From Candidatus Calescibacteriota bacterium (lineage in GTDB: Bacteria; CAIJMQ01; JAADFP01): DNA of 54,997 bases. The stretch's first letter is position 1, and the number at the start of each line of letters is the position of its first letter. Under the pieces are notes generated by a model. The model worked only from the letters and a program-made list of their open reading frames with translations. It was not told where the DNA came from and did not search any database. The stretch covers positions 1-54,997 of the forward strand of contig JAGGYA010000019.1 of NCBI GenBank assembly GCA_021162785.1. Direction: 5' to 3'. Of the stretch, positions 10,999 to 25,095 are shown piece by piece. The position numbers were made by a program, and so were the translations under genes.

Positions 10999-12084
10999 TT
11001 ATACACCAACCTCTTCTTCAGGCGGGTTTTCCACATATCCCTTCACAAGATCCCCTACTTCCTCAGTGGAATACCCCATCTTACCAGCTGAAAGACTCTT
11101 TAAATGATCCCTCACTACCTTAATCACTGCTTTTTCCAGTCTCTCAGCTCCTTTCTCTTCACCCAGGAATTCCAACATCATCATCCCTGCACATATCGCT
11201 GCCAGAGGATTGATTACTCCTTTCCCTGTATATTTTGGAGCTGAACCACCAATTGGTTCAAACATTCCCAGTTTCCCCGGATGAATATTTCCACCCGCAG
11301 CAATTCCCATTCCTCCCTGCAAAATAGCACCCAAGTCTGTTATTATATCTCCAAACATATTGTCAGTGACTATCACATCAAAGTACTCAGGGTTTTTGAC
11401 CATCCACATACAAATAGCATCCACATGTGCATAATCTTTTTCAATATCCGGATATTCTTCCCCCACTTCATAAAATACTCTCTCCCAGAGGTCCCATGCA
11501 TAGGTAAGAACATTTGTCTTACCACATAGAGTTACCTTTTTCTTCCTATTCCTTTTCCGAGCAAATTCATATGCATACCTCACACATCTCTCCACACCTT
11601 TACGGGTAACCAGCATTTCTTGAATAGCCACTTCATCAACTGTGCCTTTCTTGAAAAAACCACCTATCCCCACATACAGACTTTCTGTATTTTCTCGAAC
11701 TACCACGAAATCTATATCTTCAGGACCTTTATCCCTTAAAGGCGTCCAAACACCTGGATAAAGTTTAACAGGCCTTAAGTTTATATAGAGGTCCAGTGAA
11801 AACCGCAGTTTCAAAAGTATTCCTTTCTCAAGAACTCCTGGTTTTACCCTGGGATCTCCAATAGCTCCTAAGTAAATAGCATCCATTTTTTCCATTTCAG
11901 CAAGGGCACTATCAGGCAGAGTCTCTCCAGTTTTAAGATATCTCTCCGCACCAAAATCGTAGAAATGGAAGTTGAGTTTGAAACCTTCCTTCCCTGCAAC
12001 TGCTTCCAGGACCTTTACCCCTTCCCGGATAACCTCAGGCCCTGTCCCATCACCAGGAATAACCGCTATTTCATAACTCTTCAT
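10999..12084 (-). CDS. Isopropylmalate/isocitrate-type dehydrogenase (LeuB-like)
   Basis: 361 residues of the beta-decarboxylating dehydrogenase family: NAD(P)-dependent oxidation and decarboxylation of a 2-hydroxyacid such as 3-isopropylmalate. Seen: [10 protein letters not shown] at the N-terminus, the substrate-arginine region [35 protein letters not shown], the metal-binding [12 protein letters not shown] and the nucleotide loop [14 protein letters not shown]. The ENTE-x-LY loop is also found in IDH-like and homoisocitrate-type enzymes, so substrate assignment is uncertain. A LeuC-like hydro-lyase is encoded far away at 52197-53474; leuA and leuD are not in the window. It overlaps iscU by 14 bases. 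Confidence 0.85.
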
Positions 12085-12466
12085 TTCTTACCTCTCCTTT
12101 CTGCTTCTTTAAATAATCCTTAATTGCTTCTCTTAAGGCATCCGTTGCCAGATTGGAACAATGCATTTTGATAGGAGGAAGCCCCTCTAAAGCGTCTGCA
12201 ATGTCATTCCTGGTTATTTTCATTGCTTCTTCAATAGTCTTTCCCTTTGCAAGTTCCGTTATCATACTTGAGGTGGCTATTGCTGCAGCACAACCAAATG
12301 TCTTAAATTTTATATCTTTTATCCTCCCATTTTCCACTTTTATCATTACCTCCATAAGATCACCACAGATGGGGTTCCCAACTCTTCCTACTCCATCAGG
12401 ATTCTCAATTCTCCCCATATTTCGAGGATTCATAAAATGCTCAATCACTTTTTTTGAATACTGCAT
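12071..12466 (-). CDS. iscU: Fe-S cluster assembly scaffold IscU/NifU N-terminal type
   Basis: 131 residues. The scaffold on which [2Fe-2S] and [4Fe-4S] clusters are built using sulfur from the cysteine desulfurase. The three ligand cysteines are Cys34 (NPICGD, with Asp36), Cys59 (FGCAAAIA) and Cys103 (MHCSNLA). The lysine-rich C-terminus lacks the LPPVK-type HscA motif context, but LPPIKMHC is present at 97-103. It is separated from iscS by mnmA and nadA and has its own extended -10 promoter, so it may be expressed apart from them. Confidence 0.93.
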   Translation of the reverse strand: MQYSKKVIEHFMNPRNMGRIENPDGVGRVGNPICGDLMEVMIKVENGRIKDIKFKTFGCAAAIATSSMITELAKGKTIEEAMKITRNDIADALEGLPPIKMHCSNLATDALREAIKDYLKKQKGEVRNEEL

Positions 12467-12483
12467 AGGACTTAATGATACCA
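12467..12483 (-). promoter_or_regulatory. Extended -10 promoter close to the iscU start
   Basis: On the minus strand TG-G-TATCAT (12483-12475) lies 8 bases before the iscU ATG, in the 38-base gap after nadA. No Shine-Dalgarno and no good -35 are seen. The spacing fits a leaderless or nearly leaderless transcript for iscU and the genes after it. Confidence 0.4.
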
Positions 12484-12504
12484 GATTTTACTCTCCATTT
12501 TAAA

Positions 12505-13410
12505 TCATGCCAGTGTTTCCACCATTCTCTGGATAGCCTTGTAGGCTCTCTTTACTATATCTTCAGGTAAAGTTATCTTAGGGGAAAGTGTCTCAAGTGA
12601 GTGGAGAACCTTTTCCAGAGTTATTTTCTTCATATCTTCACAAATTGCTTGAGGATTGGCTGGATAGAAAGATTTCTCAGGATTTTCTTTTTTCAATCTA
12701 TAAAGTATTCCTGTCTCTGTCCCCACAATAAACTCCTCCTTAGAGCTTTCCCGAGCTATCTTGACCATACCACCTGTGGAAAGCACTTCATCTGCAAGTT
12801 TTCTTACTTCTCTCCGACATTCCGGATGCACCATTACCAGTGCTTGAGGATGTTTTTCTTTTTCTCTCCAGATATCTTCAGGAAGTATTTTCATATGTAC
12901 CGGACAATAGCCTGGCCAGATGTGAATTTCTTTTTCTCTTACCTTATATTTCACATGGTCTCCAAGATGCTCGTCTGGGAAAAAGAGGATTTCTTTTTGA
13001 GGAATTTTTTTCACCACTTCCACAGCATTAGCAGAAGTGCAACAATAATCGGATTCAGCTTTCACCTCTGCATTGGTATTCACATAAGTAACTGCGGGAA
13101 CACCAGGATAGAATTCCTTTTTTCTCCTCACATCATCGGGTGTAACTGTTTCTGCTAAGGGACATCCAGCAGTAGTATCCGGGAGCAAAACAGTTTTTTC
13201 AGGAGCAAGAATATAAGCTATCTCAGCCATGAATTTTACCCCGCAAAAAACAATAACCTTTTGAGGCACCTTAGAAGCTACACGAGAAAGTTCAAGGGAA
13301 TCACCAATAAAATCAGCAATATCCTGAATTTCTGGAGATTGATAATTATGAGCCAGGATTACCGCATTTCTTTCTTTTTTAAGCTTTATAATCTCCTCAA
13401 TGATTTCCAT
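12505..13410 (-). CDS. nadA: Quinolinate synthase NadA
   Basis: 301 residues. NadA condenses iminoaspartate with dihydroxyacetone phosphate to quinolinate for NAD synthesis, using a [4Fe-4S] cluster. Typical motifs: AHNYQ-x-PEIQDIADFIGDSL near the start, GVKFMAE with the first Cys, DTTAGCPLAE, YVNT, PDEHLG, VHPECRREV and GTETG. Cysteines sit at the expected three places of the pseudo-threefold fold. The enzyme needs Fe-S delivery, which fits its place between mnmA and iscU; nadB and nadC are not in the window. Confidence 0.95.
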   Translation of the reverse strand: MEIIEEIIKLKKERNAVILAHNYQSPEIQDIADFIGDSLELSRVASKVPQKVIVFCGVKFMAEIAYILAPEKTVLLPDTTAGCPLAETVTPDDVRRKKEFYPGVPAVTYVNTNAEVKAESDYCCTSANAVEVVKKIPQKEILFFPDEHLGDHVKYKVREKEIHIWPGYCPVHMKILPEDIWREKEKHPQALVMVHPECRREVRKLADEVLSTGGMVKIARESSKEEFIVGTETGILYRLKKENPEKSFYPANPQAICEDMKKITLEKVLHSLETLSPKITLPEDIVKRAYKAIQRMVETLA

Positions 13411-14464
13411 TTTCTCTTACCCCTCTTCTTATCCATCCTCCTGCAATAACTCTATCCTCCCTGTAAAGGACCACAGCCTGACCAGGAGTAACTGCCCATT
13501 GAGGATGGAAAAATCGGAGCCGAATCCTTCTCCCATCCCAGTAAATAACCTCTGCTTTCTCTGGTTTCACCAGATACCTTATCTTTGCTTCCACTATATC
13601 TCCTTGTTTTAAAGGAAAATTTTTATCTGCTATAACCTCTTCTGCTTCCAATATTGAAGAGTAAATTTCTTCCCTTTTCCCTATTACAATTTTATTCTCT
13701 TCTGGTATGATCTCTTTTATATAATAAGGCTCTCCCAGCTTGATCTTCAATCCTCTTCTCTGTCCAATGGTAAAGAAATAAACTCCAGGATGTTCTCCCA
13801 CTATTTTCCCCTCGGTTGTAATAATGGGACCGGGACAGATACTTACTCCACCTTCCTTAGTCAAAAATTCTTTTATTCCCCTCCCTTCCAAGAAACAAAC
13901 TTCCTGTGATTCATGAAAAAGTGCAGGGATCCCTATCCTTCTTGCTTCTTGGTGGACTCTTTCCTTTCTCCATTCCCCTAAGGGGAAGTAAATCTTTGAA
14001 AGAGGTTTTTCCAGAAGGGGGAAGAGAAAATAGGATTGGTCTTTATCTACATCCACCCCTCTAAATAATCCCCATTCCCCATTTTCCTCTTTTATTCTGG
14101 CATAATGTCCAGTAACCAGACATTCACCTCCCAGTTCTAAAGCTTTATTAAGAAGATAACCAAATTTTATATATCTATTGCAAACTATACAGGGATTGGG
14201 GGTTTCTCCTTTGAGGTAAGAGTTAATGAAGTAAGATATCACCTTTTTTTCAAACTTTTCTCTAAAATTGAGCGAGTAAAAGGGGATTTTGAGGAATTCA
14301 GCTACTTTACGAGCCCTACTTTCCGAAAACCATCCTGAATACTCACTACCAAAAAGCTTTAGAAAAATTCCTATCACTTCATAACCTGATTCCAGCATCA
14401 AATATGCTGAAAAGGCAGAGTCTACTCCTCCACTTAAAGCTACTACTGCTCTTTTTTTTCTCAT
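13397..14464 (-). CDS. mnmA: tRNA-specific 2-thiouridylase MnmA
   Basis: 355 residues. MnmA adds sulfur to U34 of Lys, Glu and Gln tRNAs using sulfur from IscS. PP-loop SGGVDS is at about 10-15, followed by the catalytic Cys region TPNPCIVCNRYIKFG (near 100) and the second catalytic Cys in ESQEVCFL (near 190), then the C-terminal beta domains. It follows iscS by 68 bases. A TTGATT-17-TATGAA arrangement ends 6 bases before its ATG, and a separate TATATT box lies further upstream; either could serve as a promoter. Confidence 0.95.
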   Translation of the reverse strand: MRKKRAVVALSGGVDSAFSAYLMLESGYEVIGIFLKLFGSEYSGWFSESRARKVAEFLKIPFYSLNFREKFEKKVISYFINSYLKGETPNPCIVCNRYIKFGYLLNKALELGGECLVTGHYARIKEENGEWGLFRGVDVDKDQSYFLFPLLEKPLSKIYFPLGEWRKERVHQEARRIGIPALFHESQEVCFLEGRGIKEFLTKEGGVSICPGPIITTEGKIVGEHPGVYFFTIGQRRGLKIKLGEPYYIKEIIPEENKIVIGKREEIYSSILEAEEVIADKNFPLKQGDIVEAKIRYLVKPEKAEVIYWDGRRIRLRFFHPQWAVTPGQAVVLYREDRVIAGGWIRRGVRENGNH

Positions 14465-14532
14465 AATAGGTTCATACTCCCACAGAATATAACAATCAAA
14501 ACTTTACCATAACTCACCATTATCCAACTTTT

Positions 14533-15696
14533 TCATTTTCCTGAGTAAAGAGGGCTCATTTTCCTGAGTCTTTCAATTATGGGTGGGAGAACCTCCAGAA
14601 GATAATCTATATCTTCTTCCCTATTATCCTTACCCAGAGAAAATCTTACACTTCCCTGTGCAGTTACTGCAGGAACTCCCATAGCCATTAGGACATGTGA
14701 AGGTTCTAATGTCCCAGATGTGCAAGCTGAACCAGAAGATACTGCTATCCCTTCCAGATCCAGGTTTAATATTATTGATTCACCCTCAACATATTCAAAG
14801 GAAACATTGAGAGTATTGGGTAATCGGTATTGTGGATGGCCATTAATACGAACATAGGGAATCCGTTCCAAAATACCTTTTTCCAGTTTGTCTCTGAGAT
14901 TTTTTATCCTCTCACTTTCTTCCTTCCATTCCTTTCGGGCAATTTTTGCTGCTTCTCCCAACCCCACTATAGCTGGAACATTTTCTGTCCCTGCCCTCAA
15001 GTTTTTCTCATGATGCCCACCAGTAATAAGTGGCTCAATTTTTCTCCCTTTTTTTATGTAGAGAACCCCTATTCCCTTGGGACCATAGATTTTATGTCCG
15101 GAAAGGGAAAGGAAATCCACACCCAACTTTTTCACATCCACTTTAATCTTTCCCACTGCCTGAACTGCATCTGTATGGAAGGCAATCCCCCTTTCCTGAG
15201 AAATTTTGGCCAGTTCCCTTATAGGCTCTATTGTCCCCACTTCATTATTAGCCATCATGATGGAAACCAGAATTGTTTCCCGGGTAATAGCCTTTTTTAG
15301 ATCCTCCAAATCCACCCTGCCATACTTATCCACTGGAAGGTAAGTTACACGAAACCCCTCTTTTTCCAATTGTTTTACAGGATTCAAAACAGCATGATGC
15401 TCAATCTTGGTAGTGATTATGTGATTGCCCCTTTCTCGGTTTCTCCAGCAGTACCCTTTGATTGCCAAGTTGTTGGATTCAGTTCCTCCAGAGGTAAAGA
15501 TTATCTCCTGGGGTTCTGCATTGAGAAGTCTTGCCACTTCTTCTCTTGCTTTTTCCACAGCGTCTCTTGCTTCTCTTCCAAAGGAGTGTAGACTTGAAGC
15601 ATTTCCAAATTTCTCCTCAAAATAAGGAATCATAGCTTCTATTACTCTTTCATCCATTGGACAGGTAGCATTGTGATCCATGTATACTCTTCTCAT
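14533..15696 (-). CDS. iscS: Cysteine desulfurase IscS/NifS
   Basis: 387 residues. PLP enzyme that takes sulfur from cysteine as a persulfide and passes it to IscU, thiouridylases and sulfur carriers. The PLP lysine is Lys202 (SGHKIYGPKG), and the active-site Cys is Cys325 in the flexible loop SSGSACTSGTLEPSH. Other family marks: TSGGTESNN near 69 and TDAVQAVGK near 175. The start is preceded by a strong AGGAGG-type site. The order regulator-iscS-mnmA is common. It is likely the main sulfur source for the thiolation and homocysteine genes upstream in this operon. Confidence 0.96.
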   Translation of the reverse strand: MRRVYMDHNATCPMDERVIEAMIPYFEEKFGNASSLHSFGREARDAVEKAREEVARLLNAEPQEIIFTSGGTESNNLAIKGYCWRNRERGNHIITTKIEHHAVLNPVKQLEKEGFRVTYLPVDKYGRVDLEDLKKAITRETILVSIMMANNEVGTIEPIRELAKISQERGIAFHTDAVQAVGKIKVDVKKLGVDFLSLSGHKIYGPKGIGVLYIKKGRKIEPLITGGHHEKNLRAGTENVPAIVGLGEAAKIARKEWKEESERIKNLRDKLEKGILERIPYVRINGHPQYRLPNTLNVSFEYVEGESIILNLDLEGIAVSSGSACTSGTLEPSHVLMAMGVPAVTAQGSVRFSLGKDNREEDIDYLLEVLPPIIERLRKMSPLYSGK

Positions 15697-15713
15697 AACC
15701 TCTCCCTCCTTCC

Positions 15714-16160
15714 TCAGATATGAAAAATATAATTGTGGGAAATCTCCCTGCCTCCTTCTGGAAAAACGAGAAAATCTTGAAGAGTAAGTTCTTTAAGCCA
15801 TTTATGAAACTTTTCCTGTAGAGTTTTCCATAGATTAAAGGCAGGACAGTAATTCTTTCTCGGACATCCTCTTCTATCATTCAGACAATCTACAAAGGGG
15901 AAGTCTTCCCCCGTAGCCCTGAGAATTTTCTCCAGAGTAATTTCTTGAGGAGCATGGAGGAGATAATAACCTCCTTTCCTCCCACGAAAACTTCCCAGGA
16001 GTCCTTCCTTCTTGAGTCTATTAAGTAACCTTTCCAGATAATCTCGGGGAATACCCTCCTCTCTTGCAATTTCACTCACGGATACTGGGGTATTCTTTCC
16101 TTTACGAGCAAGATAGAGAAGGGCTCTCACACTGTAACGGGTGCGTGTGGAAAGATACAT
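15714..16160 (-). CDS. iscR: Rrf2 family regulator, IscR-like
   Basis: 148 residues from ATG 16160, which has a GGAGGGAAGG site; the longer reading to 16217 runs into the NIL-ferredoxin gene. An N-terminal winged helix (about 1-75, STRTRYSVRALLYLA and the RGRKGGYYL wing) is followed by the cluster-binding loop with Cys92, Cys99 and Cys105, nearly the IscR spacing (92/98/104). It therefore probably binds a [2Fe-2S] cluster and senses Fe-S or sulfur status. It lies directly before iscS. The 7-bp inverted repeat upstream of cysK is a candidate target, but no binding site can be proved from sequence. Confidence 0.88.
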   Translation of the reverse strand: MYLSTRTRYSVRALLYLARKGKNTPVSVSEIAREEGIPRDYLERLLNRLKKEGLLGSFRGRKGGYYLLHAPQEITLEKILRATGEDFPFVDCLNDRRGCPRKNYCPAFNLWKTLQEKFHKWLKELTLQDFLVFPEGGREISHNYIFHI

Positions 16161-16171
16161 TCCTTCCCTCC

Positions 16172-16579
16172 TCACAAAAGTATTTCCATAGCCTGATAGG
16201 GACAGGCAGGAATACAAAGTTCACAAGCAATGCATTTTTCTTTATCAAATCTAACTTCCCAGCTCTCTCGATCCACAGAAAGTGCACCGGTGGGACATAT
16301 GGTTATACAGGCAGTGCAATGTGTGCATCTTTCCTTTCTCCAAACCACATCCCTGGCCAGAGGCTGGATATGAACACCTATTTTTTGAAGATACTCTATG
16401 CCTTTGTTGAGAGCGTCGCTACTTCCCTCAAGATCGATTACCAGTTTACCTTCCTCCTCCGGAGTTACTCGTGCACGAAGAATATTAACTACCAGATGAT
16501 AATCCTTTACCAGATGGTAGGTGACTGGTTTATTAACCAGAGAAGGGGGAAAGGTAAGGACTAATCTTCTCTTGGCCAT
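16172..16579 (-). CDS. NIL-domain ferredoxin of the homocysteine pathway
   Basis: 135 residues. A NIL domain (about 3-77, LTFPPSLVNKPVTYHLVKDY) is fused to a 2x[4Fe-4S] ferredoxin domain with Cys85/88/91/95 and Cys116/119/122/126. This architecture matches the methanogen MA1822-type protein, which works with a DUF39 protein in forming homocysteine from aspartate semialdehyde and a reduced sulfur source, as reported for anaerobes. The DUF39 partner is four genes upstream in the same run. The neighbouring ubiquitin-like protein (16594-16782) could be the sulfur donor. The role is family knowledge plus context. Confidence 0.85.
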   Translation of the reverse strand: MAKRRLVLTFPPSLVNKPVTYHLVKDYHLVVNILRARVTPEEEGKLVIDLEGSSDALNKGIEYLQKIGVHIQPLARDVVWRKERCTHCTACITICPTGALSVDRESWEVRFDKEKCIACELCIPACPYQAMEILL

Positions 16580-16593
16580 TCTACCCTCCTTTT

Positions 16594-16782
16594 TTAACCT
16601 CCTGAAACCACTCTCATTACCTCTATTTCCTCATTTTCCTCCACCCATTCACTTTCTGTAAGGAGTTCTCCATTTTTGATTACCAGCACCTCTTCTCGGT
16701 TAAGTCCCAGTTCCTCAAGAATTTCACCCACTCTTTTCCTTCCTTTCACTTCTTTAATTTCACCGTTAACTTTCACCTGCAT
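16594..16782 (-). CDS. Ubiquitin-like sulfur carrier (TtuB/ThiS/MoaD type)
   Basis: 62 residues with a beta-grasp pattern and the C-terminal Gly-Gly (VVSGG at the end) needed for adenylation and thiocarboxylate formation. It overlaps ttuA by 17 bases, so TtuB, the carrier for 2-thiolation of tRNA U54, is the best match. ThiS is possible by size, but no thiG or thiazole genes are nearby. The activating E1-like enzyme (TtuC/ThiF/MoeB) is not in the window. Its other neighbour is the NIL-ferredoxin, which suggests that it may also feed homocysteine synthesis. Confidence 0.82.
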   Translation of the reverse strand: MQVKVNGEIKEVKGRKRVGEILEELGLNREEVLVIKNGELLTESEWVEENEEIEVMRVVSGG

Positions 16783-17674
16783 AATTTCTCACCTCTTCTT
16801 TCCTGAATGTTTTGCAAAAAGAACAAATTTCTGTCACTGTAGGGAAACCGCATAAAGCACATTCTCTCAAAGTAACTTTCCCCTCCCCAAATAATTGTTT
16901 GTTTTTAAGGAATCCCAGGTAGAAAGAATATTTTGTCCCTGGAGAAGAAACTTCCAGCTGATTGAGAAGATGTTTAATCTTGAGGAAAGAAGCAGTATAA
17001 GCATAAGGACAATCCTGGCGAGAAAAGGGAATTCTCTGAAGAAAAGCATAGGCTGCTATCTCCCTTTCTGTAAGATACACCAAAGGTTTAATCCTTTTTT
17101 TAAGTTTCCCTTCCTCGGGTAAGACGGGTGTCTGTTTTGCAATATAACTTATCCTCCACCCCAAAAGATTTGCCATTAACGCGGAAACCATATCATCTAA
17201 ATTATGACCGGTAGCCACACAGGAAAAACCATTTTCATAAGCAAACTTATTAAAGTAGTATCTTTTAACTAATCCGCAAAGTGAACAGGGGGACTTGTAA
17301 GTCTCCCGAGCCAGTTCCTTTATTCCCTTTCCCCATTCTTTCTTGATAGAAATTACTTGAAGAGGAAGCTGGTAGAGATGGGCAAACTCCTCACAGAACT
17401 TCCGTGAAATTTCAGAGTATCCGTCTATTCCCAGGTCAATGTGAAGGAGGGAAATTTTGTATCCAAGTTTTCTAAGGAGGAAGGCCAAGGTAAGGCTGTC
17501 TTTTCCCCCAGAGATAACTACTAAAACCCTTTCCTTCTTCCTAACCATCCCAAAATCAGTTATGGCCTTCTGAACCCTTCCTTCCACAAACTCAAGAAAA
17601 TGTTCCTTGCATAAAGGTAAATTATGCTCATAAAGCTTGATGATGGCCTTTTCTTTGCATTTCCTGCATTTCAT
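16766..17674 (-). CDS. ttuA: tRNA-5-methyluridine(54) 2-sulfurtransferase TtuA
   Basis: 302 residues. TtuA makes 2-thioribothymidine at position 54 of tRNA, which stabilises tRNA at high temperature, using the thiocarboxylated carrier TtuB. Seen: N-terminal zinc finger (Cys3, Cys6, Cys22, His25), PP-loop SGGKDS (55-60), the [4Fe-4S] ligands Cys130, Cys133 and Cys222, and a C-terminal zinc finger (Cys272, Cys275, Cys284, Cys287). The three cluster cysteines fall at the same numbers as in the Thermus enzyme as I recall it. Both tRNAs in this window carry the TTCAA T-loop that is the substrate. Strong marker of a thermophile. Confidence 0.92.
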   Translation of the reverse strand: MKCRKCKEKAIIKLYEHNLPLCKEHFLEFVEGRVQKAITDFGMVRKKERVLVVISGGKDSLTLAFLLRKLGYKISLLHIDLGIDGYSEISRKFCEEFAHLYQLPLQVISIKKEWGKGIKELARETYKSPCSLCGLVKRYYFNKFAYENGFSCVATGHNLDDMVSALMANLLGWRISYIAKQTPVLPEEGKLKKRIKPLVYLTEREIAAYAFLQRIPFSRQDCPYAYTASFLKIKHLLNQLEVSSPGTKYSFYLGFLKNKQLFGEGKVTLRECALCGFPTVTEICSFCKTFRKEEVRNYAGES

Positions 17675-17677
17675 CTT

Positions 17678-18064
17678 TCACTCCAGTATTTTTACTTTTT
17701 TTAAGGCTGTTTTCAGAATGATACGGGATAAAATAAAAGCAATGCCTAATCCTACAAGAAAAAAGATAAAAGTGGTAAGTAGTGAAAATCTCTGAGAGGT
17801 GAAGAATTTTTCTCCTACCCATGCTCCCATCATAAGGAAAAGTAAGGGGGGTAGGAAACTGGCAATAGAAACTAAAGCAAATCTACCTTCCGGGATACCC
17901 ACTTTTATCCTTTCTCCCACCTTAAACTCTCTTCTTTCCTCAATCTCAAGAACCTGACCTCCACCTTTGCAAATACCACATCTTTCACAATAGGGAGACC
18001 TTAACAGCCTTACCTTTACCTTCCCTTCCTTAGCTCCTTCCACTATTCCTTCCTCAATCCTCAT
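17678..18064 (-). CDS. RseC/MucC family membrane protein
   Basis: 128 residues. A cysteine-rich N-terminal part (Cys26, 29, 32: SPYCERCGICKGGG) followed by a small beta region and two transmembrane helices (about 63-85 and 92-115) is the RseC/MucC arrangement. RseC is associated with reduction of the [2Fe-2S] SoxR sensor and with Rnf complexes. No rnf or soxR genes are here; the gene sits between ttuA and a PP-loop ATPase with near-zero spacing, so its job may be tied to redox supply for sulfur transfer. That link is inference. Confidence 0.78.
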   Translation of the reverse strand: MRIEEGIVEGAKEGKVKVRLLRSPYCERCGICKGGGQVLEIEERREFKVGERIKVGIPEGRFALVSIASFLPPLLFLMMGAWVGEKFFTSQRFSLLTTFIFFLVGLGIAFILSRIILKTALKKVKILE

Positions 18065-19029
18065 ATCATTCTCCCTTTTCTCTCAGGTTCAACCCAGAAT
18101 CTGCCCTCTTCTTTTCCCCGCTTCCACTTTACCTCCACAAGCTCCCAACTCCTTTTCTTGCTGTAGAAAGCGGCTATTGCTCCTCCCTCTAAAAGTTCTT
18201 CCTCATCCACAGGAGAAGATAGAAAAACTACTGCACCTTTTCCCTCTATCTCCTGTAGAAGATAATCTTCAGGTCCAGCAAGAGAAAGTAATTTTCTGTT
18301 CTCTTCCCTATTCCTCCCTACAATAAGTTTTTTTCCGGAGGGGAGTCTGAAATGTCTTCCCACTTTTAAAAGTTCAACTTCCTTTAACCCAAAATTGGGA
18401 TTTTTCTCCATAAGATCCTTAAGTCGACGGGAAAAAATGGGATCGGTTAAGAGGCATCCTCCTGCAGGAGAAGAATAATTTGTTAGCCCTATCTTCTCAG
18501 CAAGAGCCAGTTGAATTTTCCTCCCTCTTCCCTGAATATCCAAGAGTTCTTCCCTTTTAATCCATCCTTCTTCCTCTGGAATAGTGGGTGGTAAAAGTTT
18601 TGCAGAGAGAGGCCGAAGCACCCTCTTCTCAAGGCCTGCTTCCCTCTCCATTAAAGGGAATACCTCTCTTCTCTGAGACATAGGCCTTTGTCCAAGAACC
18701 TCGCCGGTAATCACAAATTCAGCTCCCACTTCCTCCATTATCTCCTTTGCCTTTTTAAGCATGAGTATCCGGCAATCAATACACGGATTCATCCCCTGTC
18801 CATACCCATAGCAGGGATTTTTAATAACCTCAATCATTTCTTCTCCCAAGAAAATCTCCTTAAAAGGTATACCAAGGAATTCCCTCACTTTCTCCATATC
18901 CTTAAGTGTAAGGAAAGGAGTATGGAAATTCACTCCTATAACTTCTACCCCCTGGAGTTTCACCAGATATACTGCAAGAATAGAATCCAACCCTCCGGAT
19001 ACCAAAGCAACTGCTTTTGGTTTTCCCAT
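18061..19029 (-). CDS. PP-loop ATPase, ThiI/MnmA-like, no THUMP domain
   Basis: 322 residues. PP-loop SGGLDS at 11-16 and cysteines at 73, 83, 86 (NPCIDCRILML) and 192 (SPAGGCLLTDP) resemble sulfur-transferring PP-loop enzymes, but the RNA-binding THUMP domain of ThiI is absent. The C-terminal part (about 200-315, LKVGRHFRLPSGKKLIVGRN then PEDYLL) matches what I recognise as an NFACT-R-like domain attached to such proteins in anaerobes. The target is unknown: s4U8 of tRNA is one option. It overlaps rseC by 4 bases and follows the DUF39 gene, so a role in the sulfur relay is likely. Confidence 0.75.
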   Translation of the reverse strand: MGKPKAVALVSGGLDSILAVYLVKLQGVEVIGVNFHTPFLTLKDMEKVREFLGIPFKEIFLGEEMIEVIKNPCYGYGQGMNPCIDCRILMLKKAKEIMEEVGAEFVITGEVLGQRPMSQRREVFPLMEREAGLEKRVLRPLSAKLLPPTIPEEEGWIKREELLDIQGRGRKIQLALAEKIGLTNYSSPAGGCLLTDPIFSRRLKDLMEKNPNFGLKEVELLKVGRHFRLPSGKKLIVGRNREENRKLLSLAGPEDYLLQEIEGKGAVVFLSSPVDEEELLEGGAIAAFYSKKRSWELVEVKWKRGKEEGRFWVEPERKGRMI

Positions 19030-19043
19030 AATTTTCTTGTGTA

Positions 19044-20249
19044 TTATTTCACCTCCCTCATCTTCATCTTTTTAAGGACAATCCCTGACTCTTTTCCAGG
19101 CAGTGGAGCAACGGGTTCGGTAAGGAAAAACTTCCCTTCCTTTATCCAATCCTTTAGAATCCGGGCAATTTCCCTGGCCTTCCTGTAACTGGAGAGAGAA
19201 CCCGTGGGAATTTCCTTACCTTTGAATTTTATCTTCCCGCTCCTTAACTCTGCATAACTTACCTCTCCCAATACTTCTCCCGTACATTCAGGATAAGCCT
19301 TACTGTAATCAACAATGGGAGCGTAAATCTCGCTATCCTTGACTGAAGTAAACTCTGCCATTTCCTCATCAAGTATAGGTATGGGGATACCTATTCCCAC
19401 CGTGAGAGATACTCCATAACCAGTTATAGTTGTCCCCCGGAGCCATTCCGGTGACATCTGTTTTAAATCACCTATTACTGCAAGGGTCCCTGCACCTTCA
19501 CAGGGGACTCCATTCTCCTTCCTCTTTGCACAAGGATTGTGTTGGGTTCCCTGCCAGATAACATAACCAATACCTCCTCCCAGAAATATTCTCGTTCCAA
19601 TTCCCACTGTTCTGTAATATGGATCGTTAAGGAGAGGAGAAAGTTGTCCAGCACTGGAATAGGAAGCATTTCCCAAATGAGGTTTTAGAATGCCCATGTA
19701 AGTGTAAAGGGTTCTATCAGAAAGATTCACCGCAACATTATAGTTCTGGTAGGCGTTTCGAGGATTGAAAAGAACTGCCTCATTCACATCCTTAATGTTT
19801 ATCCATACTTTAAGATTTCTTCTTGGATAACAATCCGTCCCATAAGCCTCTGCTTCTAAGAGAACATCCTCACCAGCAACAAACGCTTCTATCACATGTC
19901 CACCACCATACCGGAATGATCCTGGATGAATGGTGTTTCGTGGATCATTATCAGGCAATGCTGTGCACCCGAGATATATATCCACTGCTCCCCATCCTGC
20001 ATAAGCAGGTACACCATTTAGATAACACCTTCCACCACCCAATTTTATCCGGGGTTGAGCATGACCAAGATTGAGGTATATACCGCTGGAACACATGGGA
20101 CCAAAAGTTCCCGTGGTTACCACATCCACTTCCTCTGCAGCTTTTTTAGCCCCCTTCTCCTCCACTATTTCAATCATCTCCTCCGCGGTTACCACCACCA
20201 CCTCCCCCTTTCTTATCTTCTCGTTTATTTCGCAAATGGTTTTTTTCAT
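19044..20249 (-). CDS. Homocysteine biosynthesis protein (DUF39/HcyBio family)
   Basis: 401 residues, full length for the core family, without the C-terminal CBS domains of some methanogen members. Conserved stretches are plain: TTGTFGPMCSSG (Cys53), GGGRCYLNG (Cys75), YLGCTALPDNDPRN (Cys95), GSFRYGGGHVIE and YGTDCYPRR (Cys140), GGGIGYVIWQGTQHNP, and SLSSYRKAREIA near the end. The family, with NIL-ferredoxin, is required in methanogens and some sulfate reducers to turn aspartate semialdehyde and a reduced sulfur source into homocysteine. It lies directly after cysK and opens the run of sulfur genes. Start has a GGGAGGGG site. Confidence 0.92.
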   Translation of the reverse strand: MKKTICEINEKIRKGEVVVVTAEEMIEIVEEKGAKKAAEEVDVVTTGTFGPMCSSGIYLNLGHAQPRIKLGGGRCYLNGVPAYAGWGAVDIYLGCTALPDNDPRNTIHPGSFRYGGGHVIEAFVAGEDVLLEAEAYGTDCYPRRNLKVWINIKDVNEAVLFNPRNAYQNYNVAVNLSDRTLYTYMGILKPHLGNASYSSAGQLSPLLNDPYYRTVGIGTRIFLGGGIGYVIWQGTQHNPCAKRKENGVPCEGAGTLAVIGDLKQMSPEWLRGTTITGYGVSLTVGIGIPIPILDEEMAEFTSVKDSEIYAPIVDYSKAYPECTGEVLGEVSYAELRSGKIKFKGKEIPTGSLSSYRKAREIARILKDWIKEGKFFLTEPVAPLPGKESGIVLKKMKMREVK

Positions 20250-20266
20250 TTTTCCCCTCCCAGTCT

Positions 20267-21190
20267 TTATACTTTAAAAATTCCAGTAGTAAGGTATCTC
20301 TCTCCTCGATCTGGCAAAATCACTACAATAACTTTATCCTTATTTTCTTTTCGAGAAGCTACTTCCATAGCTGCATATACAGCTGCTCCTGATGATATCC
20401 CAGCAAAAATTCCTTCTTCTCGAGCCAGTCTCCGGGTCATCTCTTCTGCATCTTCATCCCTTACCTTAATTACTTCATCAATTATATCCACATTCAGAAC
20501 TTGAGGGATAAAACCTGCTCCAATACCCTGGATTCCATGAGGTCCTGGTTTGCCTCCGGAGAGTACGGGAGAGGAAGCAGGTTCTACCGCTACGACTTTA
20601 AGGTGTGGTTTCCTCTTCTTTAGAACTTCCCCCACTCCAGTAAGAGTGCCACCTGTTCCTACTCCCGCCACAAAAATATCCACACTCCCTTCTGTATCCT
20701 TCCAGATTTCTTCAGCAGTTGTTTTCCTGTGTATCTCAGGATTGGCTGGATTTTTGAATTGCTGAGGCATATAAGCTCCTGAAATCTCTCGCACAATTTC
20801 CTCTGCCTTTTTCACTGCTCCTTTCATACCCTCTTCTCCCGGCGTGAGCACCACTTCTGCACCAAGCGCTTTCAAGATCAATATTCTTTCTTCACTCATC
20901 GTCTCCGGCATAGTAAGAATTAGCCGATAACCTTTAACTGCACACACAAAGGCTAAAGCTATACCAGTATTTCCACTTGTAGGCTCAACAATAACTGTTC
21001 CCTCCTTGATCCAGCCTTTCCTTTCCCCATCTTCTATCATTGCCACACCTATCCTATCCTTCACACTCCCTGTAGGGTTAAAAAATTCGCATTTTCCCAG
21101 GATGATTCCTTTCAGCCCCTTTCCTAACCTGGAAAATCTTACCAGTGGTGTTTTTCCTACCGTTTCCAAAATACTTTTATATACCCTCAT
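20267..21190 (-). CDS. cysK: Cysteine synthase A (O-acetylserine sulfhydrylase)
   Basis: 307 residues. PLP enzyme that replaces the acetyl group of O-acetylserine with sulfide. PLP lysine Lys44 ([11 protein letters not shown]), the substrate loop [10 protein letters not shown] near 70, the glycine-rich phosphate loop [10 protein letters not shown] near 175, and SSGAAVYAA near 265 are all present. It is the first gene of the sulfur block. The ATG has no clear Shine-Dalgarno; a promoter and an inverted repeat lie just upstream. Confidence 0.95.
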
Positions 21191-23160: not shown

Positions 23161-24155
23161 TCTTCTTCCTCTGGGAATGCTTCAAATCTGAATTCTCCTC
23201 TACCCAGAATATCGTGCAAATGGATTACTCCTTCCACTCCCCCTTTTCTGTCTTTTATTATTAGGGAAGTTATGGCATTTTTTTCCATTATCTCCAAAGC
23301 TTCATGAGCATATTTATTCTTGCTAATAGTTATGGGACTTTTCGTCATGACTTCAAAAGCCTTCGCTTTCTCAAATTTAATCCCTCTTTCCCAAGCCCGT
23401 CTTAAATCTCCATCCGTAATGATACCCACAAGTCTTCCCTCTTTATTAACTACCGTAGTGAATCCCAGCATCTTCCTGCTTATTTCTTTAATTGCATCCT
23501 TCATCAAAGTATCTTCCTCAACTATTGGTATTGCATCTCCAGTTCTCATCACATCCTTAACTTTAAGCATCAACCTTTTTCCCAATGAACCACCGGGATG
23601 AATGCGAGCAAAATCCTTCTTCCCAAATCCCTTTCTTTTAAGAAGTGCAATAGCCAGTGCATCTCCCATAGCCAGTGTAGCAGTGGTGGAAGAAGTGGGA
23701 GCTAACCCAAGAGGACAGGCTTCTTTCTTAACTCCCACATTGATTATCGCATCTGCATTTCTTCCCAGTGTGGAACGTGGATTACCTGTGAATGCAATTA
23801 TTGAATTTCCCTGCCTTTTGAAAAAGGGTAAAAGTCGTGTTATCTCTTCCGTCTCTCCAGAATTGGAGATGGCAAGTATCACATCCTCTGGGGAAACCAT
23901 ACCTAAATCCCCGTGGACTGCTTCCCCTGGATGGAGGAAAAAAGAAGGAGTTCCTGTAGAAGAAAGGGTAGCTGAAATCTTCTTCCCCACAATACCCGAT
24001 TTTCCCACACCAGTTACCACAACCCTCCCCCTTGAAGATAAAATTATTTCCACTGCTTTTTCAAATTCTTCATCCAGTTTCTCTGCTACCCCTAATATTG
24101 CCTTTGCTTCTTCCTCAAGTACCTCCTTTGCCCATTCTATGCATCTTTTCCCCAT
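23157..24155 (-). CDS. kdsD: Arabinose-5-phosphate isomerase KdsD/KpsF
   Basis: 332 residues: an SIS sugar-isomerase domain (about 35-185, VVVTGVGKSGIVGKKISATLSSTGTPSFFLHPGEAVHGDLG) followed by two CBS domains (about 205-325). It converts ribulose-5-phosphate to arabinose-5-phosphate, the first committed step to KDO. The start overlaps the end of the TauE-type gene by 41 bases. KdsC follows, and kdsA is two genes upstream, so the pathway to KDO is encoded together; kdsB is not in the window. Confidence 0.93.
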   Translation of the reverse strand: MGKRCIEWAKEVLEEEAKAILGVAEKLDEEFEKAVEIILSSRGRVVVTGVGKSGIVGKKISATLSSTGTPSFFLHPGEAVHGDLGMVSPEDVILAISNSGETEEITRLLPFFKRQGNSIIAFTGNPRSTLGRNADAIINVGVKKEACPLGLAPTSSTTATLAMGDALAIALLKRKGFGKKDFARIHPGGSLGKRLMLKVKDVMRTGDAIPIVEEDTLMKDAIKEISRKMLGFTTVVNKEGRLVGIITDGDLRRAWERGIKFEKAKAFEVMTKSPITISKNKYAHEALEIMEKNAITSLIIKDRKGGVEGVIHLHDILGRGEFRFEAFPEEEE

Positions 24156-25095
24156 AATTCCCTCTCCATAAATAAAAAATTACTATTGCACACATAACCC
24201 CTGCTACCCCAACAATTATGAGAAATGCTGGAAGGAAATAACCTTTAAGCCGGAGAATAACAGAGAGGGCGGTAGCTCCCACACTTAAGGAAAAAAGGAA
24301 TCGTATTTTCGTCCCGGGCGCATACTTGGTAGCCAATGCTCCTATCCTGGCTCCAATTCCCCCTCCTGCAAGGAGTAATAACCCACCCAGAACATCCACA
24401 TTCCCCTTTAGAGCATGGGTGAATGTCCCAAAAGCTCCTCCTACCATAATATTGAAGAGCCCTGTCCCAACAGCCATTTTTGTGGGTAGCCCCAGAAGAT
24501 AGATCATTAATGGCAAAAGTATAATTCCTCCCCCTATACCCATCAATCCTGAAAAAAAACCGCCAAGAATTCCCACCAGCACTCCACTCCAGATTGAGAC
24601 CTTCATACCCCTACAGGAGAGGAAGGGTGGAAGTAAGGAAAGGGGGAACTTTTCCTTCCAGGAAATCACTGCCTCTTCACTCTGTTTTCTCTGGGCTTTG
24701 GAGGATTCAAAGAAAGTGAAAGCAAAAATTAAGAGAAGGAAAAAGAAATAGAAATAACCAAGATAAGTATCAATCTCTCCCCGATTTTTAAGAAAATCTA
24801 CCACCCGGGCTCCTATCTCCACGGAAGGGAGCATCCCAATAAACAAAAGAAGTCCCAGAGGGAGATTTATATTCCCCAATTTTTTATGAGTAAGAGAAGA
24901 AACTATAGCCTGAGCATAGATGAAAGAAAGTGAAGTCCCCACAGCTAAATTCATAGGAAAACCAAGTATAAAAAGAGCGGGTGTGATGACCCAGCCTCCT
25001 CCCACTCCCCAGAAACCAGAAGATACTCCCGCAGTAAATCCCAGGAAGGGTAAAACCCAACCTTTTACATGAACTTCAGCAAAAGGGAAATACAT
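24115..25095 (-). CDS. TauE/SafE family permease
   Basis: 326 residues, eight or so transmembrane helices in two inverted repeats, each opening with the family pattern (GFTAGVSSGFWGVGGGWVITP near 19 and GGFFSGLMGIGGGIILLP near 178). The family exports sulfite, sulfoacetate or other organosulfur anions. It is embedded in the KDO operon, yet 4 kb downstream is a large sulfur block, so either an export role for sulfite or sulfide, or simple hitch-hiking, is possible. A 41-residue membrane protein is encoded just before it. Confidence 0.85.
   Translation of the reverse strand: MYFPFAEVHVKGWVLPFLGFTAGVSSGFWGVGGGWVITPALFILGFPMNLAVGTSLSFIYAQAIVSSLTHKKLGNINLPLGLLLFIGMLPSVEIGARVVDFLKNRGEIDTYLGYFYFFFLLLIFAFTFFESSKAQRKQSEEAVISWKEKFPLSLLPPFLSCRGMKVSIWSGVLVGILGGFFSGLMGIGGGIILLPLMIYLLGLPTKMAVGTGLFNIMVGGAFGTFTHALKGNVDVLGGLLLLAGGGIGARIGALATKYAPGTKIRFLFSLSVGATALSVILRLKGYFLPAFLIIVGVAGVMCAIVIFYLWRGNYGEKMHRMGKGGT

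Follow-up and report, generated by a model that had tools for sequence, protein, structure and literature searches.

The cluster described here brings known homocysteine-forming proteins and a known tRNA-thiolation pair together at one locus. Its small Gly-Gly sulfur carrier, proposed in an earlier note on this DNA as sulfur donor to the neighboring DUF39 protein, is by its sequence characteristics a TtuB-type partner of TtuA, rather than of homocysteine synthesis; since it appears to belong to TtuA, the cluster reads as a shared sulfur hub, with no evidence for a new route. In all likelihood this is an Rrf2-linked sulfur and Fe-S hub, comprising several separate sulfur-using enzymes and no single linear relay, in which the carrier and TtuA would thiolate tRNA. 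One proposed DUF39 donor is thereby removed at this locus.

Gene content and limits of the cluster

The window (the whole stretch of DNA analyzed, 54,997 nt) includes a run of twelve genes between 12071 and 21190, all on the minus strand, given here in transcription order:

20267..21190, minus: cysK, cysteine synthase A (TIGR01139, 466.9 bits vs. cut-off 350.95)
19044..20249, minus: DUF39/HcyBio (PF01837), sulfur-incorporating subunit of L-aspartate-semialdehyde sulfurtransferase (523.1 bits, profile positions 1-349 of 349)
18061..19029, minus: ThiI/MnmA-like PP-loop ATPase with an NFACT-R_2 domain (PF18297, PF02568, PF03054)
17678..18064, minus: RseC/MucC membrane protein (PF04246, 63.2 bits)
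16766..17674, minus: ttuA, tRNA 2-thiouridine/2-thioribothymidine-54 sulfurtransferase (solved-structure matches, key residues)
16594..16782, minus: ttuB-type Gly-Gly sulfur carrier, 62 aa, ending in RVVSGG (ThiS PF02597, 40 bits)
16172..16579, minus: NIL domain plus two [4Fe-4S] ferredoxin domains (PF09383 NIL, Fer4 x2)
15714..16160, minus: Rrf2/IscR-like regulator with Cys92, 99, and 105 (PF02082, 124.9 bits; corrected ATG start)
14533..15696, minus: IscS/NifS cysteine desulfurase (TIGR03402, 610.4 bits vs. 530.75)
13397..14464, minus: MnmA, tRNA 2-thiouridine(34) synthase (NF001138, 359.6 bits vs. 284)
12505..13410, minus: NadA, quinolinate synthase, an Fe-S enzyme (NF006878, 428.6 bits vs. 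294)
12071..12466, minus: IscU-type Fe-S scaffold (PF01592, 170.3 bits)

Gene content, order, and strand agree with the earlier note. Its description of the spacing (mostly overlapping or within 20 bases) does not hold for two of the gaps, which range overall from -17 to +68 nt: 17 (CysK to DUF39), 14 (to the PP-loop/NFACT-R gene), -4 (to RseC), 3 (to TtuA), -17 (to the carrier), 14 (to the NIL-ferredoxin), 11 (to Rrf2), 17 (to IscS), 68 (to MnmA), -14 (to NadA), and 38 (to IscU). The regulator it called IscR-like does belong to the Rrf2 family; the start is most likely the ATG at 16160, preceded by GGAGGG, instead of the TTG at 16217. The closest model to the IscS protein is NifS. The IscU gene shares 14 nt with a gene for an isocitrate/isopropylmalate-type dehydrogenase and the run goes on past it, so that 12071 is not the end of the operon; promoter and terminator scans gave signals no better than those from shuffled sequences and so mark no operon limits.

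TtuA and its carrier

The best solved matches to the TtuA protein are TtuA PH0300 (E = 1.6e-86) and Thermus thermophilus TtuA (6.1e-70), and it has the residues expected of these: Fe-S cysteines C130, C133, and C222, K137, an SGGKDS PP-loop, and zinc-finger cysteines. The top solved match of the carrier, in a single-sequence search and thus free of the profile circularity described below, is TtuB (5ztb, E = 1e-8). As in the T. thermophilus TtuA-TtuB system, the metal-binding and catalytic residues of TtuA and the Gly-Gly end of the carrier are present and the genes overlap or abut (here by 17 nt). The differences are that the carrier gene is 3′ of ttuA here (5′ in most other loci), and that no TtuC-like E1 was found in this 64% complete genome. 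Carrier homologues abut ttuA, in either gene order, at 17 of 27 ttuA loci outside the bacterium's own family.

Across 290 genomes, a TtuB-type carrier was found in 25, all of which have TtuA (Fisher 2e-28), a perfect match that is partly circular because the carrier profile used (A2) was built including TtuA-linked carriers. Five TtuA-containing genomes in which the carrier lies away from ttuA (G027, G093, G156, G198, and G217), like the abutting homologues recovered with the carrier sequence alone, provide evidence free of this circularity. A point against the TtuB reading is that no ThiF-type E1 (TtuC/ThiF family), which would charge the carrier, was found in the 64% complete genome itself (G000); E1 genes of this family are present in G001 and G002, from the same family of bacteria.

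Homocysteine synthesis and the neighborhoods of DUF39

The DUF39 and NIL-ferredoxin proteins are the likely homocysteine route here. In this respect the earlier reading of the sequence is borne out: HcyBio and NIL-2[4Fe-4S] are complete, and the same genome encodes COG2122 on another contig (C25:31356-32072, 284 bits vs. a cut-off of 271) and a homocysteine methyltransferase (C25:24339-25160). Among 14 relatives compared, C140 of the DUF39 protein is invariant and C53 nearly so; a sequence search of solved structures found no relative of this protein. The NIL-ferredoxin, with cluster motifs at residues 85 and 116, is its probable reductase partner. The check for a competing route suggested in the note likewise favors the assignment: no true MetY, MetB, or MetZ was found in the bacterium's own genome (64% complete) or in six class relatives (G000-G006), which gave partial matches only, of at most about 35 bits, while all 14 control genomes were positive.

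The L-aspartate-semialdehyde sulfurtransferase system (MA1821-MA1822, and its Desulfovibrio counterpart) is similar in its HcyBio protein with conserved cysteines, in the NIL-2[4Fe-4S] protein encoded in the same run, and in having COG2122 in the genome and no MetY or MetB; it differs in that four genes separate DUF39 from the NIL-ferredoxin gene here, with COG2122 on a different contig. Genetic work in Desulfovibrio has shown that DUF39, NIL/ferredoxin, and COG2122 serve this route (PMC5764234).

Within 5 kb of DUF39, at 131 distinct loci, we found NIL-ferredoxin genes at 100, CysK at 46, Rrf2 at 37, and IscS at 18, the last spanning several phyla. Linkage of DUF39 to these neighbors exceeds chance, and the recurring bacterial Rrf2-CysK-DUF39-NIL-ferredoxin-(IscS) neighborhood points to regulation shared with sulfide assimilation. 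TtuA together with the carrier occurs near DUF39 only in this bacterium's own family, and the only homologue of the window's carrier near DUF39 among the 131 loci is at L020, from a sister member of that family. A confident RseC homologue was likewise seen near DUF39 only in the window's own family, which lends no support to the suggestion that RseC gives electrons to the pathway.

From the families, domains, key residues, linkage, and co-occurrence established here, we infer reactions, donors, and co-regulation as follows. The DUF39 protein would take up sulfur, probably as a cysteine persulfide, and add it to aspartate semialdehyde; the NIL-ferredoxin would reduce the product to homocysteine, with COG2122 and the methyltransferase acting from elsewhere in the genome. 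Sulfide, as in methanogens, or else IscS persulfide would be the most likely source of this sulfur. The TtuB-type carrier, charged as a thiocarboxylate, would donate to TtuA's [4Fe-4S] cluster the sulfur with which tRNA is 2-thiolated (T54/U54), and IscS and IscU would supply Fe-S clusters and, directly or not, sulfur to MnmA and TtuB.

Candidate sulfur donors to the DUF39 protein

The relay proposed in the earlier note, in which DUF39 would receive its sulfur directly and mainly from the thiocarboxylated carrier, now seems highly improbable. The carrier gene does lie directly before the NIL-ferredoxin gene, and both probably share an operon with DUF39; the direct sulfur donor of the DUF39 pathway is unsettled (PMC12068725), and organisms with TtuB reportedly cannot maintain a high level of cytosolic sulfide (PMC7138817). 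However, a TtuB-type carrier is present in just 10 of 57 DUF39 genomes and missing in 47, and 23 of the 57 have no E1 over the cut-off, making a charged carrier unlikely as a general DUF39 requirement. Seven other genomes with both genes have them far apart or on different contigs. Desulfovibrio genetics, in the passages of PMC5764234 concerned with it, names DUF39, NIL/ferredoxin, and COG2122, with no mention there of a carrier.

Carrier-DUF39 co-occurrence in related genomes, the absence of which had been named in advance as telling against the relay, also came out against it. Two relatives of the same class, G003 (96% complete) and G004 (92%), retain DUF39 and NIL-ferredoxin, in G004 within a matching cluster. 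Neither has TtuA, a TtuB-type carrier, a ThiS-family match, or an E1 over the cut-off; the ThiS-family absence is weaker than that of E1, because both searches used can miss short genes (the PF02597 search overlooked the carrier of G002).

A variant in which TtuB serves mainly TtuA, and in this family also feeds DUF39 when sulfide is scarce, is quite unlikely. Co-transcription with DUF39 is probable, and several pathways use ubiquitin-like carriers redundantly in Thermococcus kodakarensis (PMC11323500), but the linkage is confined to one family, and among TtuA-containing genomes those with DUF39 do not have the carrier more often (10/17) than the others (15/18).

Carriers of other kinds do occur near DUF39. 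Including a profile search, carriers of any kind were found at 9 of the 131 loci, one of them a thiamine ThiS (L078), and MoaD-like carriers lie within 5 kb at seven (L038, L043, L049, L069, L076, L240, and L255), which might be taken to favor the relay. At L076, L240, and L043 (Dehalococcoidia/Chloroflexi) the carrier adjoins DUF39-NIL-ferredoxin-COG2122; at L049, a deltaproteobacterial MAG, it is between IscU and DUF39. As an internal control, the 1072 kb within 5 kb of DUF39 contained 15 carrier genes and the 584 kb at 5-10 kb contained 2, a modest enrichment not taken as proof because it was seeded by the same matches. We did not accept just any carrier near DUF39 as support for a relay. 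A thiocarboxylated carrier of the ubiquitin-like kind might in certain lineages donate sulfur to DUF39, either by moonlighting of the TtuB type here or through the MoaD-like carriers of L076/L240/L043 and L049; this is an unlikely reading, of which the MoaD-like version has the better genomic support. It is worth testing in these few lineages (L049, L043, and L076/L240): if true, carrier donation to DUF39 would be a protein-bound, sulfide-free homocysteine route. A literature search on the NIL domain together with E1 found nothing useful.

Methionine synthesis in Wolinella succinogenes (HcyS/MetY) reportedly proceeds through a thiocarboxylate, using MetY and not DUF39. It shares the idea of a thiocarboxylated carrier with the present proposal, but a MetY-type sulfhydrylase was not found here. 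In Mycobacterium, CysO/CysM carry out thiocarboxylate-dependent cysteine synthesis; the sister-genus genome G002 is comparable in that it has fusions of ThiS to CysK and of MoaD to E1, while a ThiS domain is missing from the window's CysK. The earlier note did not mention the Wolinella precedent, a known protein-thiocarboxylate way of making homocysteine to which PMC5764234 refers.

The block of ThiS-CysK, ThrC, MoaD-E1, and NIL genes preceding DUF39 in G002 was considered as an ancestral arrangement and rejected: a CO-dehydrogenase-like C-terminal remnant lies in between, and in G001 an intact CO-dehydrogenase-like gene precedes DUF39, with the fusions on another contig.

IscS persulfide, rather than free sulfide, is a tentative candidate for the physiological DUF39 donor in bacteria with IscS in the cluster, possible though on balance doubtful. 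It is compatible with the hub explanation, of which it would specify the sulfur-donor step. The IscS genes near DUF39 in several phyla are consistent with it, as is the persulfide that, according to work cited in PMC5764234, is present in vivo on a cysteine of the DUF39 protein MA1821. Against this, methionine sulfur in Methanococcus maripaludis reportedly does not come from cysteine (Liu 2010, as cited in PMC11323500), and IscS may instead serve IscU, MnmA, and TtuB.

The PP-loop/NFACT-R protein probably acts in RNA thiolation, to go by its domains. We found no literature on NFACT-R combined with ThiI. Its gene is kept beside IscS/NadA in G004, a genome without TtuA.

The gene run and its predicted homocysteine genes

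Between 21190 and 12071 the minus strand carries, in order, genes for CysK, DUF39/HcyBio, a PP-loop ATPase with NFACT-R, RseC, TtuA, the carrier, an NIL-2[4Fe-4S] ferredoxin, Rrf2, a NifS/IscS desulfurase, MnmA, NadA, and IscU, with intergenic gaps of -17 to +68 nt. The run extends beyond 12071, since the IscU gene overlaps a dehydrogenase gene downstream. One start is listed separately:

16160, minus strand: best-placed start of the Rrf2 regulator gene

All genes named in the earlier note are thus present and tightly packed, in the order it gave, and 12071-21190 is a genuine, dense sulfur hub with parts all of known kinds. A TauE/SafE-family transporter (sulfite exporter family; 24115-25095) is encoded on the strand of cysK, about 3 kb upstream of it.

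The window genome (949 kb, 64% complete), of which the window is contig C14, comes from a small lineage, and was compared with two genomes of its family (G001, G002) and four of its class (G003-G006). A PF01053 search found no complete MetY, MetB, or MetZ in any of the seven (top match 35 bits, over a partial stretch), while 14 of 14 control genomes were positive. The window genome does encode COG2122 (C25:31356-32072) and, on the same contig, a homocysteine S-methyltransferase (C25:24339-25160). In this it resembles Desulfovibrio, where DUF39, NIL-ferredoxin, and COG2122 were found necessary, according to Price et al. (2018; PMC5764234), who also cite a persulfide on the methanogen DUF39 protein. 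Because all four genes are present and MetY/MetB/MetZ were not found, the predicted role in homocysteine synthesis, as first proposed from DUF39 and NIL-ferredoxin, is well supported; this support comes from homology and the logic of the pathway, not from assay. Most likely, DUF39 takes sulfur onto a conserved cysteine (Cys53 or Cys140), then builds a thio-adduct with aspartate semialdehyde, with electrons supplied by the NIL-ferredoxin. The sulfur donor for this route is unsettled (PMC12068725); sulfide and IscS persulfide are each compatible with the comparative data.

The carrier and TtuA

The earlier note had proposed that the thiocarboxylated carrier, or else IscS persulfide, may be the direct donor to DUF39. 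The carrier, a 62-aa ThiS-like protein ending in RVVSGG, best matches TtuB chains among solved structures (5ztb, E 1e-8; 5gha, 4e-8), with SAMP2-type proteins ranking below. The protein encoded before it, by a gene overlapping its own by 17 nt, matches the solved TtuA structures of PH0300 (E 1.6e-86) and T. thermophilus. It keeps Cys130, Cys133, Cys222, and Lys137, with SGGKDS at 55; these three cysteines and the lysine bear the same numbers in Thermus TtuA. Work on Thermus found Lys137 to be essential for the desulfurization of TtuB (PMC7138817). The [4Fe-4S] cluster of TtuA would receive sulfur from the TtuB thiocarboxylate and use it in tRNA 2-thiolation, a modification that predicts a thermophilic host.

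A search of 290 genomes supplied 30 TtuA loci. With the window carrier as single query, 20 of these prove to have a homologue abutting TtuA, at most about 85 nt away, including 17 of the 27 that lie outside the window's family. The carrier is 3′ of ttuA in the window and ahead of it in most other loci, so the adjacency outlives changes in gene order. Among 131 distinct DUF39 loci, the same query matches only L020, from the sister genus. Direct donation from this carrier to DUF39 is not supported.

Co-occurrence over the 290 genomes points the same way. TtuA (at least 200 bits) is found in 35, a TtuB-type carrier (at least 55 bits) in 25, and DUF39 in 57. All 25 carrier genomes have TtuA (Fisher P 2e-28), an association partly circular because the profile was built in part from these carriers; five carriers away from ttuA (G027, G093, G156, G198, G217) are free of this circularity, and their genomes all have TtuA. 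The carrier is missing from 47 of the 57 DUF39 genomes, and its weak association with DUF39 (P 0.015) disappears once TtuA is accounted for (10 of 17 TtuA genomes with DUF39, versus 15 of 18 without). In the seven genomes outside the family that have both carrier and DUF39, the two are separated by 42 kb to 1.1 Mb or sit on different contigs.

No ThiF-type activating enzyme (E1) was found in the 64%-complete window genome. Two genomes at least 93% complete (G027, G174) have TtuA and a TtuB-type carrier, yet no ThiF-family E1 over cut-off.

DUF39 genomes lacking carrier or E1

Same-class genomes G003 (96% complete) and G004 (92%) encode DUF39 and NIL-ferredoxin, in G004 within a corresponding cluster (Rrf2-CysK-DUF39-NIL-ferredoxin-(AIR-synthase/SelD-like)-IscS-PP-loop-NadA-IscU). 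Genome searches found neither TtuA nor a TtuB-type carrier in either, and no ThiS-family or ThiF-type E1 match over cut-off. E1 is likewise missing, at that cut-off, from 23 of the 57 DUF39 genomes, including four at 98-100% completeness (G134, G147, G152, G284). The DUF39 pathway is therefore unlikely to depend in general on a thiocarboxylated carrier.

Other genes near DUF39

Across 80 named loci, 40 more from a Chloroflexi genome's class (five of them duplicating others), and the relatives' loci, the recurring order is Rrf2-CysK-DUF39-NIL-ferredoxin, frequently with IscS, IscU, MnmA, NadA, a homologue of sulfide-dependent thiazole synthase, and the PP-loop/NFACT-R protein; the neighbourhood suggests that sulfur assimilation and the supply of Fe-S clusters are regulated together. 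The PP-loop ATPase-NFACT-R_2 fusion (window 18061-19029), a candidate RNA thiolase, recurs in 8 of the 131 loci, mostly without TtuA.

Nine of the 131 have a ThiS/MoaD-type carrier no more than 5 kb from DUF39. In two Chloroflexi loci (L076:12767-13611, L240:5940-6781), a tandem of three MoaD-like genes follows DUF39-NIL-ferredoxin at a short distance, with COG2122 between in L076; the middle copy has lost its Gly-Gly (C-terminus ..MFFCFPRS(G)). L043 has an E1, a MoaD-like protein, and an NIL-only protein near DUF39, and a deltaproteobacterial MAG has a MoaD-like carrier ending in PLGGG between IscU and DUF39-NIL-ferredoxin (L049:1983-2267). These four loci's carriers are not of the window type and are the remaining leads.

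A ThiF/MoeB-type E1 (PRK12475-like, with a C-terminal extension) adjoins DUF39 in three lineages, at L032:328-1380 (G001), L036:120-1316, and L037:3460-4476, with no adjacent carrier gene. In G002, L020:8909-12678 encodes in one run a ThiS-CysK fusion, a threonine-synthase-like protein, a MoaD-E1 fusion, and an NIL-only protein, and resembles a module for cysteine or homocysteine that is fed by a thiocarboxylate; G001 contig C44 has ThiS and MoaD-E1 matches with frame lengths equal to those of G002. The L032 DUF39 frame is broken into two overlapping ORFs (1515-2724), probably by a frameshift or assembly error. L020:8571-8819, a rearrangement or assembly joint, is a remnant similar to the C-terminus of a CO-dehydrogenase-like protein, whose intact version precedes DUF39 in G001 (L032:2817-4808).
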